Shown: piece after piece, positions 4,117 to 10,038 of the stretch
How the letters are laid out: the number at the start of each line of letters is the position of its first letter
Position numbering within the stretch: position 1 is the first letter of the stretch
Assembly (NCBI GenBank): GCA_029979485.1
Contig: JAPOHK010000001.1
Span: 1-29,370 of the forward strand
Direction: 5' to 3'
Length of the DNA stretch: 29,370 bases
From: Candidatus Planktophila limnetica
GTDB lineage: Bacteria > Actinomycetota > Actinomycetes > Nanopelagicales > Nanopelagicaceae
Made by a program: the position numbers and the translations under genes
The notes under the pieces: generated by a model
The model's database searches: none
Seen by the model: only the letters and a program-made list of their open reading frames with translations
Told to the model about the DNA's origin: nothing

Positions 4117-5966
4117 TCTCAGCGCTGGTAACAGCCAGTAAATTCCTTTCCGTTCTTTCAAGTTTTATAACTATTGGAGCTTTGTTAACCCTAGCCTTTT
4201 TGATTTTAGATAAAGAAGGAAAGCTCTCAACTAGTGGATCTAAAATTAAATCCATAATTTCTTACTCCGCTCTTGCCTGGTTTGTTAGCAGTGTCTTGAA
4301 TATATTGTTTACTTTGGCAAACATCCTGGGTCAATCTGTGACATCAGTCCTAGATCTAACTGTCTTGCAATCGTTTGTCTTTCAAATTTCACTGGGCCAG
4401 TACCTTTTGTTCCAAGCACTCATTGCACTCTTTGTTGCGATTACTTCCCGTGCATTAACTTCATCCGGATACACAGCCGTATTACTTCTTATTTCCTTGC
4501 TTGCTATTTCTGCACCGGTATTTCAGAGCCATTCAGCATCCAGTGGTTCTCACGCGTTAGCAATCGGATCACTTCTAATTCACGTATTAGGACTTTCATT
4601 CTGGGTGGGTGGAGTAATCGCGATTGCATTACTTAACGAGGAAGACCGAAAAGTTTCGCTACCGCGCTTTAGCCATCTCGCCTTATGGTCAGCTATAGCG
4701 GTGGTTATAAGCGGCGTTATAAATGCGTCTGTGCGACTTAATTTTGCAGCAGCGTGGTCAACTAGTTATGCCTATGTCGTGATTCTTAAAGTTGTAATTA
4801 CGGCAGTACTACTTTTCTTTGGGTACAAACACAGAAGTTATCTAGCTGCAAAACCATCAGTTAATTGGCGAGCAATGACTCGATTAATCTCAGTAGAAGC
4901 TGCAATCATGATTTTTGTAACAGCATTAGGTTCGTGGCTTTCATCTAACCAGCCCCCAGTACGTGGATCACAAGAACCATTTAATGCAGCACTAGCAATT
5001 ACAGGTATAGAGATGCCCGACGCACCAACATTTACACGGATTCTTTTTGCTTATGATCCAGATGTCTTCATGATTGGCTTACTTGTTTTGGCAGTTGCTC
5101 TGTATATAAAAGGCGTTGTAGTGCTTACTCGTCGGGGAGACAAATGGCCAGTTGGTCGCACAATTTCATTTGCACTTGGAATTTCGGCAATAGATTTCGC
5201 AACAAGCGGCGGACTCGGTGTTTATGCACACTTTGCTTTTTCATGGCACATGGTTTCCCATATGGTTCTTGGGATGATTGCGCCCATCGGAATTGTTCTT
5301 GGAGCACCAATTACGCTTGCACTTCGCACACTTCCACAATCGCGTGACGGACAAGAACTTGGACTGCGTGGATTATTAATCAAAGGATTGCACTCACGGT
5401 ACGCACGAATTATTACTAATCCAGTTGCTGCGCTAGCGATTTTTGACGGATCGCTTTTTGCTCTTTACTTCACCTCTTTGTTTAGTGGAATGATGCAGAG
5501 TCATCAGGGCCACTTGTTTATGGGAATTCACTTTATTCTGGCGGGAATTCTGTTCTTCTACGTAATTGTGGGCGTTGATCCAAACCCAAGAAAAGTTCCA
5601 CACATAGTCAGAATTGTTATTCTATTTGCGGCGATGAGTATTCATGCATTCTTCTCTGTTGCATTGATGTCAACCAGCACTCTTATTGATGGCGGATATT
5701 TCGAATCCCTGCAACGTCCATGGTCCTCGGATTTACTTGCAGATCAACAAGCAGGCGGCGCCATTGGTTGGGCGATGGGGGAAATTCCAATTCTGATTGC
5801 CCTCGTTGCTACATTCATCCAGTGGATGCGCGATGATTCGCGCGAAACAAAAAGAATTGACCGCAATACAGCTCGAATGGCTGCTCTTGGCCAACCAGAT
5901 GAACTTGCGCAGTACAACCTATATCTCAGTAATTTAAGTAAGAAGGATAGAGAGGCGAATCAGTGA
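4113..5966 (+). CDS. CopD-CtaG fusion: copper import / cytochrome c oxidase assembly membrane protein
   Basis: A 617-residue polytopic protein. The N-terminal half (about 1-280, roughly eight TM helices) is CopD-like, with SHSASSGSHALAIG and LLIHVLGLSFWVGG (about 135-170). The second half (about 310-570) is a caa3-type CtaG domain, with FSWHMVSHMVLGMIAP, SHQGHLFMGIHF and MSIHAFFSVALM, whose His/Met-rich helices are the likely copper sites. CopD is linked to copper uptake and CtaG to copper insertion into haem-copper oxidase; the fusion is common in actinobacteria, often beside CopC. The start overlaps copC by 4 nt and the stop overlaps the next gene, so the three genes are probably one transcript. 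The C-terminus is hydrophilic and charged. Confidence 0.92.
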   Translation: MISALVTASKFLSVLSSFITIGALLTLAFLILDKEGKLSTSGSKIKSIISYSALAWFVSSVLNILFTLANILGQSVTSVLDLTVLQSFVFQISLGQYLLFQALIALFVAITSRALTSSGYTAVLLLISLLAISAPVFQSHSASSGSHALAIGSLLIHVLGLSFWVGGVIAIALLNEEDRKVSLPRFSHLALWSAIAVVISGVINASVRLNFAAAWSTSYAYVVILKVVITAVLLFFGYKHRSYLAAKPSVNWRAMTRLISVEAAIMIFVTALGSWLSSNQPPVRGSQEPFNAALAITGIEMPDAPTFTRILFAYDPDVFMIGLLVLAVALYIKGVVVLTRRGDKWPVGRTISFALGISAIDFATSGGLGVYAHFAFSWHMVSHMVLGMIAPIGIVLGAPITLALRTLPQSRDGQELGLRGLLIKGLHSRYARIITNPVAALAIFDGSLFALYFTSLFSGMMQSHQGHLFMGIHFILAGILFFYVIVGVDPNPRKVPHIVRIVILFAAMSIHAFFSVALMSTSTLIDGGYFESLQRPWSSDLLADQQAGGAIGWAMGEIPILIALVATFIQWMRDDSRETKRIDRNTARMAALGQPDELAQYNLYLSNLSKKDREANQ

Positions 5967-7111
5967 TGGATTCACTTTATTCATTACCAAGTGAATACGA
6001 AGAGCTGCGCCAGAGTGTTCGTGCACTTGCACAAAAAGAAATTGCACCTCATGCAAAATCTGTCGATGAAGATCACCGCTACCCAATAGAGGCCGGACAA
6101 GCCCTTGCTAAAGCAGGACTCTCTGCAGCACATGTTCCAACAGAGTTCGGTGGCGATGGAGCAGATGCTCTCGCTGTAGTTCTAATTATTGAAGAAGTTG
6201 CTCGAGTCTGCGGATCTTCCTCTCTGATTCCGGCTGTAAATAAATTAGGTTCAATGCCCTTAATTCTGGGTGGAACTACAGAACAGAAAAAACGATGGCT
6301 AACTCCTTTGGCGCAAGGAAAAGGTTTTTCATATTGTCTCTCCGAATCAGAAGCAGGATCTGATGCGGCGTCACTTCGCACTAAAGCTACAAAAAGTGGA
6401 GATAAGTGGATCATCAACGGAAGTAAAAAATGGATTTCTAATGCAGAGATTTCTGATTTCTATACTGTTATTGCGCAAACAGATCCCTCTCTAGGCTCCA
6501 AAGGAATAACTGCCTTTGTTGTTGAGAAAACAGATGCTGGCGTTTCATTTGGTGCGCCTGAGAAAAAAATGGGATTCCGCGGATCTCCAACTCGTGAAGT
6601 TTATTTCGATAACGTCGAAATCTCCGATGACCGTCGAATCGGTGAAGTTGGTACAGGTTTTTCATTAGCGATGGATACTTTGGATCACACTCGCATCACA
6701 ATTGCAGCCCAAGCACTTGGACTTGCTCAAGGCGCACTCGATATTGCAACTGCATATTCACACGAACGCAAACAATTCAATAAACCAATTTTTGATTTCC
6801 AAGGCGTTCAATTCATGTTGGCAGATATGGCAATGAATATTGAAGCCGCTCGCCAACTAACGTACGCCGCAGCAGTAAAGAGCGAAAACGGCGAAAAGGA
6901 TCTCAAGTTCTTCTCTGCTTCTAGCAAATGTTTTGCTAGCGATGTGGCGATGAAAGTTACACAAGATGCAGTGCAGATTTTGGGTGGGTACGGATATGTT
7001 TCAGATTATCCAGTTGAGAGAATGATGCGCGATGCAAAACTTACACAGATTTACGAAGGTACAAACCAGGTTCAAAGAATTGTGATGGCTCGTAACTTAC
7101 CTGTTCGCTAA
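5966..7111 (+). CDS. Acyl-CoA dehydrogenase (FadE25-like)
   Basis: This flavoenzyme catalyses the alpha,beta-dehydrogenation of acyl-CoA, the first step of beta-oxidation or branched-chain amino acid breakdown, passing electrons to ETF. The 381-residue length is standard. The order is an N-terminal helical domain, a middle beta domain with YCLSESEAGSDAASL (about 128-142) and KWISNAE, then a C-terminal helical domain with RKQFNKPIFDFQGVQF and ILGGYGY. The catalytic base is the Glu in IYEGTNQVQR (about residue 364). The ATG at 5966 overlaps the preceding TGA; a GTG at 5963 is an alternative, and AGAGAGG lies upstream. It is the third gene of the copC operon, although its link with copper is unclear. 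Its stop codon directly abuts that of the convergent 5-FCL gene. Confidence 0.95.
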   Translation: MDSLYSLPSEYEELRQSVRALAQKEIAPHAKSVDEDHRYPIEAGQALAKAGLSAAHVPTEFGGDGADALAVVLIIEEVARVCGSSSLIPAVNKLGSMPLILGGTTEQKKRWLTPLAQGKGFSYCLSESEAGSDAASLRTKATKSGDKWIINGSKKWISNAEISDFYTVIAQTDPSLGSKGITAFVVEKTDAGVSFGAPEKKMGFRGSPTREVYFDNVEISDDRRIGEVGTGFSLAMDTLDHTRITIAAQALGLAQGALDIATAYSHERKQFNKPIFDFQGVQFMLADMAMNIEAARQLTYAAAVKSENGEKDLKFFSASSKCFASDVAMKVTQDAVQILGGYGYVSDYPVERMMRDAKLTQIYEGTNQVQRIVMARNLPVR

Positions 7112-7651
7112 CTATTTTTTGAATCTAACGATTAAATCTGGAGTTGCCGCAGCATTTACGGCAACGTCATGGGTTTCTCGTGGCAAGACTTCACTTGTTA
7201 CTTCACCAGAGTGCACGAGTGCTATTTTCCATCCGGACATCGATGGAAGAGCGCGATCGTAGAAACAACCACCTTGACCGAGTCGAAAACCATCTCTATC
7301 AATTCGAAGCGCAGGCACGATTACAACGTCAATTTCTGGTAGCGGTGAAACCACATCACCAACTGGCTCAAGAATCTTCTTCTTCTCAACTAGTTTGCTG
7401 TCATCGCCGTCCCAATAAATCCAATCTATGTGATCGTGATTTACTCGTGGAAGCAGAAGAGTTTTTCCTGACTTTATAAGTGCTCGATTTAGTTCGAGAG
7501 TGCTAGGTTCGTAACCATAAGAAACATAGCTTGCAATAATTGTGGCCTGCATTACTTCTGGAGTTGAAAGTACATTTGAATAACTTGAAGGGACAAAAGC
7601 TTCTCGTCTTTCGCGGCGGTAGCGCTCACGAATCTGTGCTTTATCTTTCAT
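7112..7651 (-). CDS. 5-formyltetrahydrofolate cyclo-ligase
   Basis: This enzyme converts 5-formyl-THF to 5,10-methenyl-THF with ATP, salvaging the folate storage form. The protein has 179 residues, as expected. The motifs are an N-terminal basic helix (RERYRRERREAF), YVSYGYEPST, VPALRIDRDGFRLGQGGCFYDR (about 112-133), in which the usual GGGYYDR ends in GGCFYDR, and ETHDVAVN near the C-terminus. AGGGGA upstream of the ATG at 7651 serves as SD. In many actinobacteria this gene is followed in the same direction by galU, the gephyrin-like gene and rimJ; here it is divergent from glp and galU is absent from the interval. Confidence 0.94.
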   Translation of the reverse strand: MKDKAQIRERYRRERREAFVPSSYSNVLSTPEVMQATIIASYVSYGYEPSTLELNRALIKSGKTLLLPRVNHDHIDWIYWDGDDSKLVEKKKILEPVGDVVSPLPEIDVVIVPALRIDRDGFRLGQGGCFYDRALPSMSGWKIALVHSGEVTSEVLPRETHDVAVNAAATPDLIVRFKK

Positions 7652-7683
7652 CGTAAATCCCCTAGAAATCTCGTCACAACAAG

Positions 7684-7689
7684 TATGGT
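7684..7689 (+). promoter_or_regulatory. -10 box for leaderless glp transcript
   Basis: TATGGT lies exactly 6 nt upstream of the ATG at 7696 and there is no Shine-Dalgarno sequence. Transcription starting about 7 nt after the box would begin at the start codon. No good -35 hexamer was found. The same spacing recurs at five starts in this window. Confidence 0.5.
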
Positions 7690-7695
7690 GTGATT

Positions 7696-8607
7696 ATGGC
7701 AGAGCAGATGCGAGTCGATGAGTTTCTCAGTTCATTATTGGGAATTTGTCATCCACTTGAGCCTCTTGATTTACCTTTATTGGATGCACACGGTGCAACA
7801 TTGGCTGAAGATATTTACGCTGGTGAAAGATTAGTTCTACGTGCCAATAGTCGCATTCGCTCCACACAAATTGGTTTGGCTGCTTCGATTGGTTTAGATC
7901 ATCTGCCAACGCGCCCCCATCCACGCGTTGTTATTTTATCCGCCGGTCCAGACTTAGTTGAACCTGGGCAAACTCTCAAAACAGATGAAGAGTTTGAAAC
8001 AAATTCATGGTTGCTCACAACCGCTGTTCGTGAAGTAGGCGCTATTGGTTATCGCGTGCATTCAATTCCTGATGATGAAGAAGAGCTCTTATCTGTGATT
8101 GAAGATCAACTAGTTCGCGCAGATTTGATTGTCATTAGTGGCGAACGTAACGATGATTCATTTGACCTGATCACTCGAACGCTTCAAAAAATGGGCGAAA
8201 TAACAACTCTGGACTTAGCAATTGAAAATAGCGGAAGACACAATTTCGGTCAGATTGGCCCAGATAAAACTCCTGTAGTAACTCTTCCAGGTGATCCAAT
8301 CAATGCATATATCTCCTTTGAGTTATTTGTTCGACCAATGATTCGCACAATGCTTGGAGTTTCAAATATTCATCGGCCTTCTGTTAAAGCAAAACTTGAA
8401 AAGGCGATTACTTCCACACCTGGAACTCGTTCTTATATTCGTGCGATTCTTTCTGAGGACGCCAGTTCAGTGCGCGCCCTAGATATTCAAGATGAAATCT
8501 CAACACTTTCAGATGCCAACTCATTTATAGCCTTGAGTGAAAAAGATGACTCAGTAGCTGCTGGAGCATCCGTGAATGTTGTGGTGCTCGAGCGGCGATA
8601 CATTTAA
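7696..8607 (+). CDS. glp: Gephyrin-like (MoeA-related) division protein Glp, internally shortened
   Basis: A 303-residue MoeA homologue, about 100 residues shorter than MoeA. The first ~45 residues (MRVDEFLSS...LLDAHGATLAEDI) match the MoeA N-terminus. The PFDNSAMDGYA block and the whole of domain II plus most of domain I are then missing, and the sequence resumes at IGLAASIGLDHL. Domain III is present but altered: SGGVSVGD-type becomes SGERNDDSFD, and GLPGNPVSA becomes TLPGDPINAYISFE. Domain IV (about 230-303) is kept. Molybdopterin chemistry is therefore unlikely. In Corynebacterium a MoeA-like protein, Glp, binds FtsZ and a membrane receptor (GLPR, the SepX family); the sepX gene lies two genes downstream. 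I chose the ATG at 7696 because a -10 box sits 6 nt before it; GTG 7690 and ATG 7708 are alternatives. The gene ends directly at the rimJ ATG. Confidence 0.8.
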   Translation: MAEQMRVDEFLSSLLGICHPLEPLDLPLLDAHGATLAEDIYAGERLVLRANSRIRSTQIGLAASIGLDHLPTRPHPRVVILSAGPDLVEPGQTLKTDEEFETNSWLLTTAVREVGAIGYRVHSIPDDEEELLSVIEDQLVRADLIVISGERNDDSFDLITRTLQKMGEITTLDLAIENSGRHNFGQIGPDKTPVVTLPGDPINAYISFELFVRPMIRTMLGVSNIHRPSVKAKLEKAITSTPGTRSYIRAILSEDASSVRALDIQDEISTLSDANSFIALSEKDDSVAAGASVNVVVLERRYI

Positions 8608-9192
8608 ATGCGCGAACATTCTTGGCCGATAACCCTTTACGGTACAGAAATATATTTGAGGCCACTACGTCTGCGTGATAGAAAGAAGTGGCTCAATGTT
8701 CGAGCAGAGAATCGGGAATGGCTAACACCTTGGGAAGCAACACTTCCTTTTATTCCTGGCAGTGATGCCGAGTCTTTACAAAAGGAGTTGCCATCCTTTT
8801 TTAGATTGGTCCGAACCCTTAATCGTGAATCACGTGATGTGCGTTCAATTTCATTTGCAATGTGGCATGAAAATAATTTAATCGGACAAATTTCTATGGG
8901 CGGCATTATTTTGGGTGCGCTGCGTGGAGCTCACATCGGATATTGGATTGATCAGGCATTCGCCGGACGTGGATATACGACCGAAGCGGTTAAATTATTA
9001 ACCCAATATGGCTTCTCGGTCCTGGCGCTGCATCGAATTGAAATAAATCTTCGACCTGAAAATGCAGCATCTCGCCGAGTGGCTGAAAAAGCTGGTTATG
9101 TTTTAGAAGGTGAACGTCCAAGGTACTTACATATTGATGGAGATTGGCGCGATCATCTTTCATTCGTAAAAGAAAACCCATTGATTAAATAG
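8608..9192 (+). CDS. rimJ: RimJ/RimL-like GNAT N-acetyltransferase
   Basis: A 194-residue acetyltransferase of the RimJ/RimL group, which uses acetyl-CoA to modify N-terminal amines of ribosomal or other proteins. The GNAT fold is visible: LRPLRLRDRKKW at the start, the acetyl-CoA loop QAFAGRGYTTEA (about 117-128), YGFSVLALHRIEINLRPENAASRRVAEKAGY as alpha3-beta5-alpha4, and GDWRDHLSF near the end. The substrate is not readable from sequence. The ATG follows the glp stop codon with no spacer and no SD, implying translational coupling. The position between glp and sepX is the conserved actinobacterial order, so acetylation of a division or ribosomal partner is a reasonable guess. Confidence 0.88.
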   Translation: MREHSWPITLYGTEIYLRPLRLRDRKKWLNVRAENREWLTPWEATLPFIPGSDAESLQKELPSFFRLVRTLNRESRDVRSISFAMWHENNLIGQISMGGIILGALRGAHIGYWIDQAFAGRGYTTEAVKLLTQYGFSVLALHRIEINLRPENAASRRVAEKAGYVLEGERPRYLHIDGDWRDHLSFVKENPLIK

Positions 9193-9218
9193 AAAAAAGC
9201 CGAGCGAAATGAGCGCTC
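9193..9218 (-). terminator. Possible antisense-facing terminator between rimJ and sepX
   Basis: GAGCG (9202-9206) and CGCTC (9214-9218) form a 5-bp stem, extendable by two G-U pairs on the minus strand. Six T residues follow on that strand (complement of the A run 9193-9198) after a 3-nt gap. It would stop transcripts running leftward from pmt, not the plus-strand operon. The stem is short, so this is tentative. Confidence 0.3.
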
Positions 9219-9247
9219 AAATACCCGATAGGTCCGATTTCTCCCCC

Positions 9248-9253
9248 TATCTT
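9248..9253 (+). promoter_or_regulatory. -10 box near the sepX start
   Basis: TATCTT ends 8 nt before the ATG at 9262. No Shine-Dalgarno sequence is present, so a leaderless or nearly leaderless sepX mRNA is likely in addition to read-through from rimJ. Confidence 0.4.
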
Positions 9254-9261
9254 TGTACATC

Positions 9262-10038
9262 ATGGCTTCCGGTCTTATCTATTTGGCAATCATTGGAATG
9301 TGGGTTGCCTATTTCTTGCCACGATGGGTTCACGATAGAAATGAATTTTCCGGAAAATCTATTGAACGTTATAAAAGTGCACTTCGAGTTGTAGCAAATA
9401 GTTCACCAGGTGGAAGTTCTGGATCTGGAGTAATTCATACAGATTTAGATCACGAGGCAAAAGTTGCACAACGTTTGATGCAAAGAAGAATTGTTTTTGC
9501 AATATTAATCATTTCACTCCTTACAACAATTGTTGGTGGTCTTATGAATACTATGAAAATTACCTTCGCGCTTATTCCTTTAACAGGAATACTTATTTAT
9601 GTTGCGCACGTAAGAAGACAAACAATTAGCGAGAAACTTTATAAACGCAGAATCAAAAACCTACAAAAGAGTCAATCTGGTACATCAAGTACAAATCTCT
9701 CTGAGGTTGTAAATCACACCGCACAAAAAGAACATTGGATTCCACTTTCAGAACGTGAGCTATCAGGCGTTGTTATTTTGCCAAAAGGTTCTGCTGAAAA
9801 CCGCGGTGCTTGGCAACCAAATGAGATTCCAGTTCCGACATATGTAAATGCGCCTAAGGCTGTAACTCCGCGTAGAACTATTGACCTCACAATTCCTGGG
9901 CAGTGGAGCGAAGAACAAGAGCGTTTGGCTCGTGAGGCTCTGGCTGCTGCAACTCCATCACGCGATCAAGTTTTTGATCAAGATTTAGCTGAAGAAGCCG
10001 TAGAAAGACTGAATCGCTCTCGCGCTTCTAACGAATAA
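9262..10038 (+). CDS. sepX: SepX/GLPR family actinobacterial division membrane protein
   Basis: A 258-residue membrane protein. TM1 is at the very N-terminus (SGLIYLAIIGMWVAYFLPRW, about 3-22), then a ~50-residue polar loop, TM2 (77-94) and TM3 (99-116), and a long hydrophilic C-terminal region. That region holds the family motif WQPNEIPVPTYVNAP (184-198) followed by RRTIDLTIPGQW (204-215) and an acidic/helical tail. This layout matches SepX of Streptomyces, needed for division-septum integrity, also described as GLPR, the membrane receptor of Glp in Corynebacterium; both are actinobacteria-specific. The ATG at 9262 matches the family's SLIYL-type N-terminus; the upstream TTG at 9253 is unlikely. 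With glp it forms a membrane-anchored FtsZ-linked module. Confidence 0.85.
   Translation: MASGLIYLAIIGMWVAYFLPRWVHDRNEFSGKSIERYKSALRVVANSSPGGSSGSGVIHTDLDHEAKVAQRLMQRRIVFAILIISLLTTIVGGLMNTMKITFALIPLTGILIYVAHVRRQTISEKLYKRRIKNLQKSQSGTSSTNLSEVVNHTAQKEHWIPLSERELSGVVILPKGSAENRGAWQPNEIPVPTYVNAPKAVTPRRTIDLTIPGQWSEEQERLAREALAAATPSRDQVFDQDLAEEAVERLNRSRASNE

Follow-up and report, generated by a model that had tools for sequence, protein, structure and literature searches.

The gene at 7696..8607 on the forward strand of the window, the whole stretch of 29,370 nucleotides of Candidatus Planktophila limnetica DNA analysed here, raises the question of what is left for a MoeA-like protein to do once domain II has gone. 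Glp, the MoeA-derived protein found at the septum of C. glutamicum, has been described as a four-domain protein (PMC10522489), and no report of a Glp lacking domain II, or of a Nanopelagicales MoeA, was found in the open-licence literature. The best explanation, to which we give a probability of roughly three in four, is that the gene encodes a Glp without domain II in which the molybdotransferase site is lost and which persists as a scaffold, joining the SepX-type protein encoded two genes further downstream to the divisome.

The open reading frame ends at the stop codon at 8607 and encodes 303 amino acids if ATG 7696 is the start codon, or 305 if GTG 7690 is. The Pfam families MoCF_biosynth (residues 95-217) and MoeA_C (residues 231-298) both exceeded their cut-offs, and MoeA_N matched residues 6-44 (profile positions 2-42) with 17.3 bits, under the cut-off of 30.8. 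An N-terminal truncation in place of an internal loss is out, since both MoeA_N and full-length Glp can be aligned with the initial ~44 residues. C. glutamicum Glp (8bve) aligns over its residues 147-414 with residues 38-297 of the short protein, and the missing part corresponds to approximately residues 44-153 of C. glutamicum Glp, about 110 residues in frame, which is essentially domain II (residues 46-145; PMC10522489). Two claims of the earlier note on this DNA, namely that about 110 central residues were deleted within one open frame and that the MoeA N-terminal segment and domains III and IV were kept, are borne out by the alignments to the C. glutamicum and family full-length Glps and, for the domains, by Pfam as well. 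Its third claim, a loss reaching from about residue 45 to the end of domain I, stands as regards domain II but not as regards domain I, whose second half (C. glutamicum residues 146-181) is present, so that both halves of domain I are retained.

In alignments to C. glutamicum Glp and to the family full-length Glp, the point of deletion falls within residues ~40-46. The junction YAGERL (residues 41-46; 7816..7833, forward strand) forms a tight turn between the strands E40-42 and E45-48 in an AlphaFold2 model (pLDDT 90.4, pTM 0.88), in which the gap is closed by a tight hairpin, and the fold is predicted to be retained without domain II. When domain II was skipped, the model superposed on Cnx1E (6gbc) over 300 of its 303 residues at 1.9 Å, on E. 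coli MoeA (1g8l) over 294 residues at 2.3 Å and on C. glutamicum Glp (8bve) over 295 residues at 3.0 Å; the model is closer to the closed Cnx1E than to the open C. glutamicum Glp, a preference given no weight for the state of the hinge because the predictor may favour older structures. The protein scored 262 bits with the NCBIfam model NF045515 (Glp, molybdotransferase-like divisome protein), under the curated cut-off of 475, with its best stretch at profile positions 138-403 and without the full set of four domains. Both Pro-rich hinges, which belong to the Glp signature (PMC10522489), were found as HPLEPLDLPL and TRPHPRVV, their exact limits being set in this analysis. Hinge 2 (RPHPRVV, residues 73-79; 7912..7932, forward strand) is the second linker between domains I and III, and its residues P74, R77 and V79 are shared by all Glp rows, full-length and short, but by none of the five MoeA rows counted.

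The short form is the usual one in the family Nanopelagicaceae (f1). Of 121 genomes searched, 118 had a Glp/MoeA match and three had none. Among the matches listed, 110 of the 118 genomes carry the short form and four a full-length one, confined to genera g6 and g15; the other four (G044, G094, G111 and G116), with fragments, weak or unlisted matches, were not judged, and these counts were read from the printed rows. Again among the matches listed, 15 of the 17 genera carry the short form, in genomes of ~0.8-2.2 Mb, and it is present in all 17 single-contig genomes, in 13 of which the short gene is the sole Glp-profile match. Relatives therefore share the deletion, and an assembly error or frameshift, behind which the earlier note had allowed for a hidden domain II, is ruled out by the identical short form in all single-contig genomes. 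An order-level draw of 201 genomes again contained only four above the NF045515 cut-off. A draw of 138 genomes from the class contained 106, a count that may include MoeA-type genes.

The window belongs to a genome bin of 162 contigs and 1.01 Mb that is 76.6% complete. One of the named relatives at 94-96% protein identity is an 'acI-Phila' genome; for a 'Candidatus Planktophila' genome the value is 78%. Another contig of the bin (G000:C17, locus L003) carries a second version of the locus at 5963-10038 of the window, with ACAD, 5-FCL, short glp, GNAT and sepX genes; its Glp is ~76% identical to that of the window, and the bin is therefore probably a mixture of two strains or two species. Planktophila-like short glp genes (79-96% identity) were also present in metagenome-assembled genome records labelled Bifidobacterium breve or Streptomycetaceae (L037, L045, L048, L050, L051 and L059), and these labels look wrong.

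Domain II contributes half of the active site in MoeA, as seen in the E. coli structures. In the short Glp the remaining active-site blocks are changed too, as the earlier note had observed for the molybdate-site motifs: compared with the full-length Glp of the family (L115), SGERND stands for SGGVSQ, PGDPIN for PGNPVS, GPDL for GDEL and ENSGRH for QPGMPQ, and the GSH near the C-terminus is missing. The protein thus differs from MoeA, Cnx1E and the gephyrin E domain in lacking both domain II and the catalytic motifs, the features by which a MoeA is recognised. A MoaC match was obtained in 29 of the 121 family genomes. Neither MoaC nor MoaA was matched in 14 of the 17 single-contig genomes, all 14 with short Glp, and the other three had both, plus a second MoeA-family match. 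Among the matches listed, a MoeA or Glp that spans domain II accompanies MoaC in 28 of these 29 genomes, a count read from printed rows which includes, in G095, a 345-residue frame starting at profile position 37; in the 29th (G094) the Glp/MoeA piece lies at a contig edge.

The bin of the window itself does contain cofactor genes. Its contig C40 carries moaC, mogA-type, moaE-type and mobA-type genes and a contig-cut moaA, and its contig C61 a separate MoeA-type gene with domain II; of these, moaC exceeds its curated cut-off, and the moaA, moaE, mobA and MoeA matches fall under theirs. A genome free of other molybdopterin genes is accordingly what most single-contig relatives present but not what this bin presents. 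A complete cofactor pathway relying on the short glp, the case which would have overturned the earlier note, was rejected, given the separate MoeA-type gene in the bin and the 14 single-contig genomes without MoaC or MoaA. Persisting molybdenum chemistry, either molybdopterin binding or replacement of MoeA, could still be argued from the retained domain III, a molybdopterin-binding fold above its Pfam cut-off, and from the cofactor genes of the bin, but with half of the site gone, the GGVS, PGNP, GDEL and QPG-type blocks changed, most single-contig genomes lacking MoaA and MoaC, and a domain II-containing MoeA or Glp among the listed matches of nearly every MoaC-bearing genome, we regard it as the least probable of the readings, with hardly any weight. 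With its active-site blocks lost or altered, and with no MoaC or MoaA match in 14 of the 17 single-contig genomes, the short Glp is very unlikely to be a MoeA enzyme. These results support the idea in the earlier note of a minimal, catalytically dead Glp beside sepX.

The names 'molybdopterin molybdotransferase' or 'molybdopterin biosynthesis enzyme', often given to the short proteins in the source records, disagree with their domain content, which suggests that the former label is wrong. A converse case was L112 (G326:C111), a MoeA by its neighbours, beside moaC, which scored 491 with the Glp model (cut-off 475) and 483 with MoeA_actino (cut-off 560). A score above the NF045515 cut-off is therefore not enough by itself to establish a divisome Glp, and some ordinary MoeA genes may receive the Glp name from this model. 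L112 was left out of the five MoeA rows in the count of Glp-specific residues.

The nearest full-length relatives of the window protein (45-48% identity) are those of genera g6 and g15 (L114-L117), proteins of 404-405 aa with domain II, GGVS and PGNP intact. They are encoded beside moaC, and in L115-L117 also beside mogA, the contig of L114 ending inside moaC. The sepX locus is the same in L115-L117, whereas domain II, the motifs and the adjoining moaC set these genes apart from the window glp, whose product has no domain II. In G005, G014 and G020 the full-length Glp is the sole Glp-profile match among those listed, and MoaA is present, and these full-length proteins may be bifunctional, doing both jobs as gephyrin does. 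In the ancestor of the Nanopelagicaceae a single full-length Glp was probably encoded in an operon with moaC and mogA, an arrangement that genus g6 still shows. Domain II would have served the enzyme only and would have been dropped when cofactor synthesis disappeared or a separate MoeA took it over.

Outside the Nanopelagicaceae the short form was found in another actinobacterial family, f34, in 17 of the 23 genomes of genus g81, the other six having fragments or no Glp match; five genomes of g82 and g85 retain full-length Glp. The f34 short Glps (307-318 aa) resemble the window protein in the loss of domain II, the gene order with sepX and the predicted fold, and they differ in four extra residues at the junction, a retained PGNP, an adjoining galU and, most likely, a separate origin. 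In trees built on the shared domains, the f34 short Glps formed a clade with 100/100 support that grouped with full-length f34 Glp (99/94 in the first tree, 83/90 in the second). The f1 short Glps formed a diverse 100/100 clade of their own, and the window Glp grouped with the full-length f1 Glp (90/53 in the first tree, 100/100 in the second). The five MoeA rows of the first tree stood apart at 100/100, with L112, labelled MoeA, on the Glp side; the second tree had no MoeA rows, and five degenerate f34 Glps were excluded from both. An AU test did not rule out one shared origin of all short forms with the first sampling (p 0.121) but did so with the second (p 0.038), a set picked after the first AU result was known, which gained 12 proteins and dropped 12 rows (three long f1 short, one long full-length f34, six MoeA, one long class and one near-copy row). 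A shared origin is thus disfavoured, and since each short clade lies near the full-length Glp of its own family and the junctions differ, domain II was most likely lost twice, separately in f1 and in f34.

Five further Glps at the same locus in f34 (L166-L170; genera g84, g86, g87 and g88) are highly degenerate proteins of 263-342 aa, of which three have a MoeA_C match (30.1, 21.5 and 15.8 bits; cut-off 22.1) and two no Pfam match. These proteins, together with the clean losses of glp in this family, are what would be expected if the short Glp were a decaying relic, in which the loss of domain II came first and what remains is decaying without a selected role. Such erosion is highly improbable for the window protein, whose dN/dS against six relatives at 94-96% identity was 0.014-0.029, an approximate ratio because dS (0.97-2.4) is near saturation. 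Three of the nine relatives included in the calculation, at ~80% identity, gave 0.060, 0.116 and an undefined value, which were not used. The occurrence of the short form in 15 of 17 genera among the listed matches and the diversity of the 100/100 f1 clade also argue against a relic and are in keeping with a scaffold under constraint.

The neighbours of the gene are equally constant. Upstream lies a divergent 5-formyltetrahydrofolate cyclo-ligase gene (5-FCL; 7112..7651, reverse strand), and downstream a GNAT acetyltransferase gene (8608..9192, forward strand), both assigned by Pfam and synteny; the acetyltransferase is presumably RimJ-like. The next gene (9253..10038, forward strand; first ATG at 9262) probably encodes a SepX/GlpR-type membrane protein, the putative Glp receptor, which matched the NCBIfam model NF050099 (SepX_GlpR_2) over residues 70-219 with 95.8 bits, below the cut-off of 150. 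The order 5-FCL, short glp, GNAT and sepX was the same in 16 of 16 f1 short loci, window included.

The cytoplasmic tail of SepX carries a motif at residues 180-220 of the open reading frame (9790..9912, forward strand; WQPNEIPVPTYVNAPKA...), located by alignment and profile and proposed here as the Glp-binding peptide. Its consensus is W-x-P-x3-P-x-P-[TS]-Y-V, in this exact form in 14 of 26 aligned SepX proteins and as variants in the others, and W187 is present in all 26, which come from Glp-bearing loci. The profile of the motif was built from 16 f1 SepX rows alone, so the rows of f34 and of other class members are independent of it. In f34, all 18 genomes whose Glp is short or cut by a contig end scored for the motif (19.7-38.7 bits), the short form being seen in 17 and the Glp of G359 being cut at the contig start. 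By contrast, none of the eight genomes in which glp is cleanly missing between galU and GNAT scored above zero. The membrane part of SepX scored 41-56 bits in these eight genomes against 32-48 in those with short Glp and, as this is no worse, only the tail is affected by the loss. The losses of glp that are independent of one another within f34 are few, two by genus membership (g83 and part of g84).

Scores above 10 bits were also obtained in three of five f34 genomes with full-length Glp and in three of five with degenerate Glp, the other two of the latter scoring 8.0 and 3.0; the motif of g85, with full-length Glp, was weak (11.9, 5.5 and 0.5). G365 had a motif of 26.2 bits on a contig that ends in the GNAT gene, with the Glp state unseen. 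G339, in which the motif is absent, was set aside as its contig ends before the position of glp, and five f34 genomes without a SepX match were not part of the comparison. In other genomes of the class the motif exceeded 10 bits in 27 of 30 SepX loci (the other three gave 7.0, 0.1 and no score), these loci coming from 39 genomes searched, 37 of which had a match. No mention of the motif was found in the available text of the SepX and GlpR papers, and neither SepX nor its tail motif matched a solved structure by sequence. In C. glutamicum, loss of the C-terminal IDR2 of GlpR partly phenocopies the loss of glp (PMC10522489). Given the invariance of W187, the co-loss with glp in f34, the occurrence in most class SepX loci and this phenocopy, the leading candidate for a Glp-binding peptide is the tail motif.

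The GNAT gene is as tightly linked to glp as sepX is, lying between the two in every f1 and f34 sepX locus examined that reaches past glp, and this would suit a conserved role outside division, in partnership with SepX or with the GNAT enzyme. We consider such a role unlikely, since SepX is septal in Streptomyces (PMC8748795), as Glp is in C. glutamicum (PMC10522489), and where glp is lost, it is the SepX tail that changes and the GNAT gene that stays in place. From the comparison of sequences we infer that the short Glp acts in division, a role backed by its co-loss with the SepX tail motif.

How far this role includes FtsZ is less clear. The site for the FtsZ tail in C. glutamicum is a domain IV hairpin in the central dimer groove; it lies elsewhere on domain IV than the glycine receptor (GlyR) site of gephyrin, and deletion of the hairpin also abolishes GlpR binding (PMC10522489). 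The receptor site of gephyrin, to which the earlier note had appealed, is therefore not the relevant one, and the hairpin used instead is shortened in the window protein (residues 245-261; 8428..8478, forward strand, from alignments). Of the C. glutamicum stretch M361-Y369, M361 is replaced by serine, and neither Y369 nor L370 has an equivalent. The hairpin is variable across f1, and its strands are longer in the f34 short Glps. Residues common to full-length Glp and both short lineages and absent from the five MoeA rows were mostly found in domain III (N103, R120, E136, D137, Q138, L139, R141 and A142) and none in the hairpin; the Glp-specific stretch EDQLVRAD (residues 136-143; 8101..8124, forward strand), with EDQLxRA at 136-142, was kept in both short lineages.

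Direct binding of FtsZ by the short Glp through the known site is uncertain, because the hairpin is shortened. The scaffold could have become an adaptor for SepX only, its hairpin grip on the FtsZ tail gone and the FtsZ contact lost or moved, for example to domain III, which the substituted and unmatched hairpin residues and the concentration of shared Glp-specific residues in domain III would both favour. This variant is possible but not the one we would expect, since the FtsZ tail is conserved as DxPDF[ML][KR] at the end of 30 of 30 f1 open reading frames (DEIDVPDFMK in the bin of the window), although other proteins bind this tail too, since the f34 hairpin strands are longer and since the hairpin deletion in C. 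glutamicum affected GlpR binding as well.

On the scaffold reading as a whole, the short Glp would dimerise through domains I, III and IV as Glp does, and at the septal membrane the dimer would grip the W-x-P-x3-P-x-P-[TS]-Y-V segment of the SepX tail. SepX would thereby be coupled to the Z-ring, either directly or via other partners of the FtsZ tail. A broader proposal, which we put forward tentatively and would not yet back, is that domains I, III and IV are all that the MoeA/gephyrin fold requires for receptor binding and division, that domain II was discarded independently on two occasions and that the SepX tail motif is read by domain III and the central groove and not by the FtsZ hairpin. 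If this is true, the SepX tail motif would be the bacterial counterpart of the GlyR loop bound by gephyrin.

The likeness to C. glutamicum Glp (Cgl0883, 8BVE/8BVF) extends to the fold, the Pro-rich hinges, the glpR/sepX neighbour, the descent from MoeA and the unconserved active site; the differences are the missing domain II, the shortened FtsZ hairpin and the position of the short gene as the sole Glp-profile match, among those listed, in 13 of 17 single-contig relatives. Actinobacteria were reported to retain systematically at least two MoeA copies, with Glp having probably lost the enzyme role (PMC11733289), and both a single short copy and the possibly bifunctional copy of g6 and g15 go beyond this picture. 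In this family of freshwater bacteria the short Glp, a relative of the synaptic protein gephyrin, offers a natural test of which gephyrin-like parts serve division and which serve cofactor synthesis: an apparently dead short copy, usually with no cofactor genes found, separates the division role from the enzyme role and points to a defined SepX peptide as the partner.

Two variations at related loci deserve mention. In family f25, Glp-like proteins encoded beside SepX (G231:C75 and G271:C52) have matches that end at about profile positions 326-334 of 403, which would fit an altered domain IV. The SepX proteins of genus g83 (L236, L237, L239, L243 and L244), where glp is absent, have another sequence, KPDPERDLIMDERP, in common in their tails, a possible binding site for a different partner.
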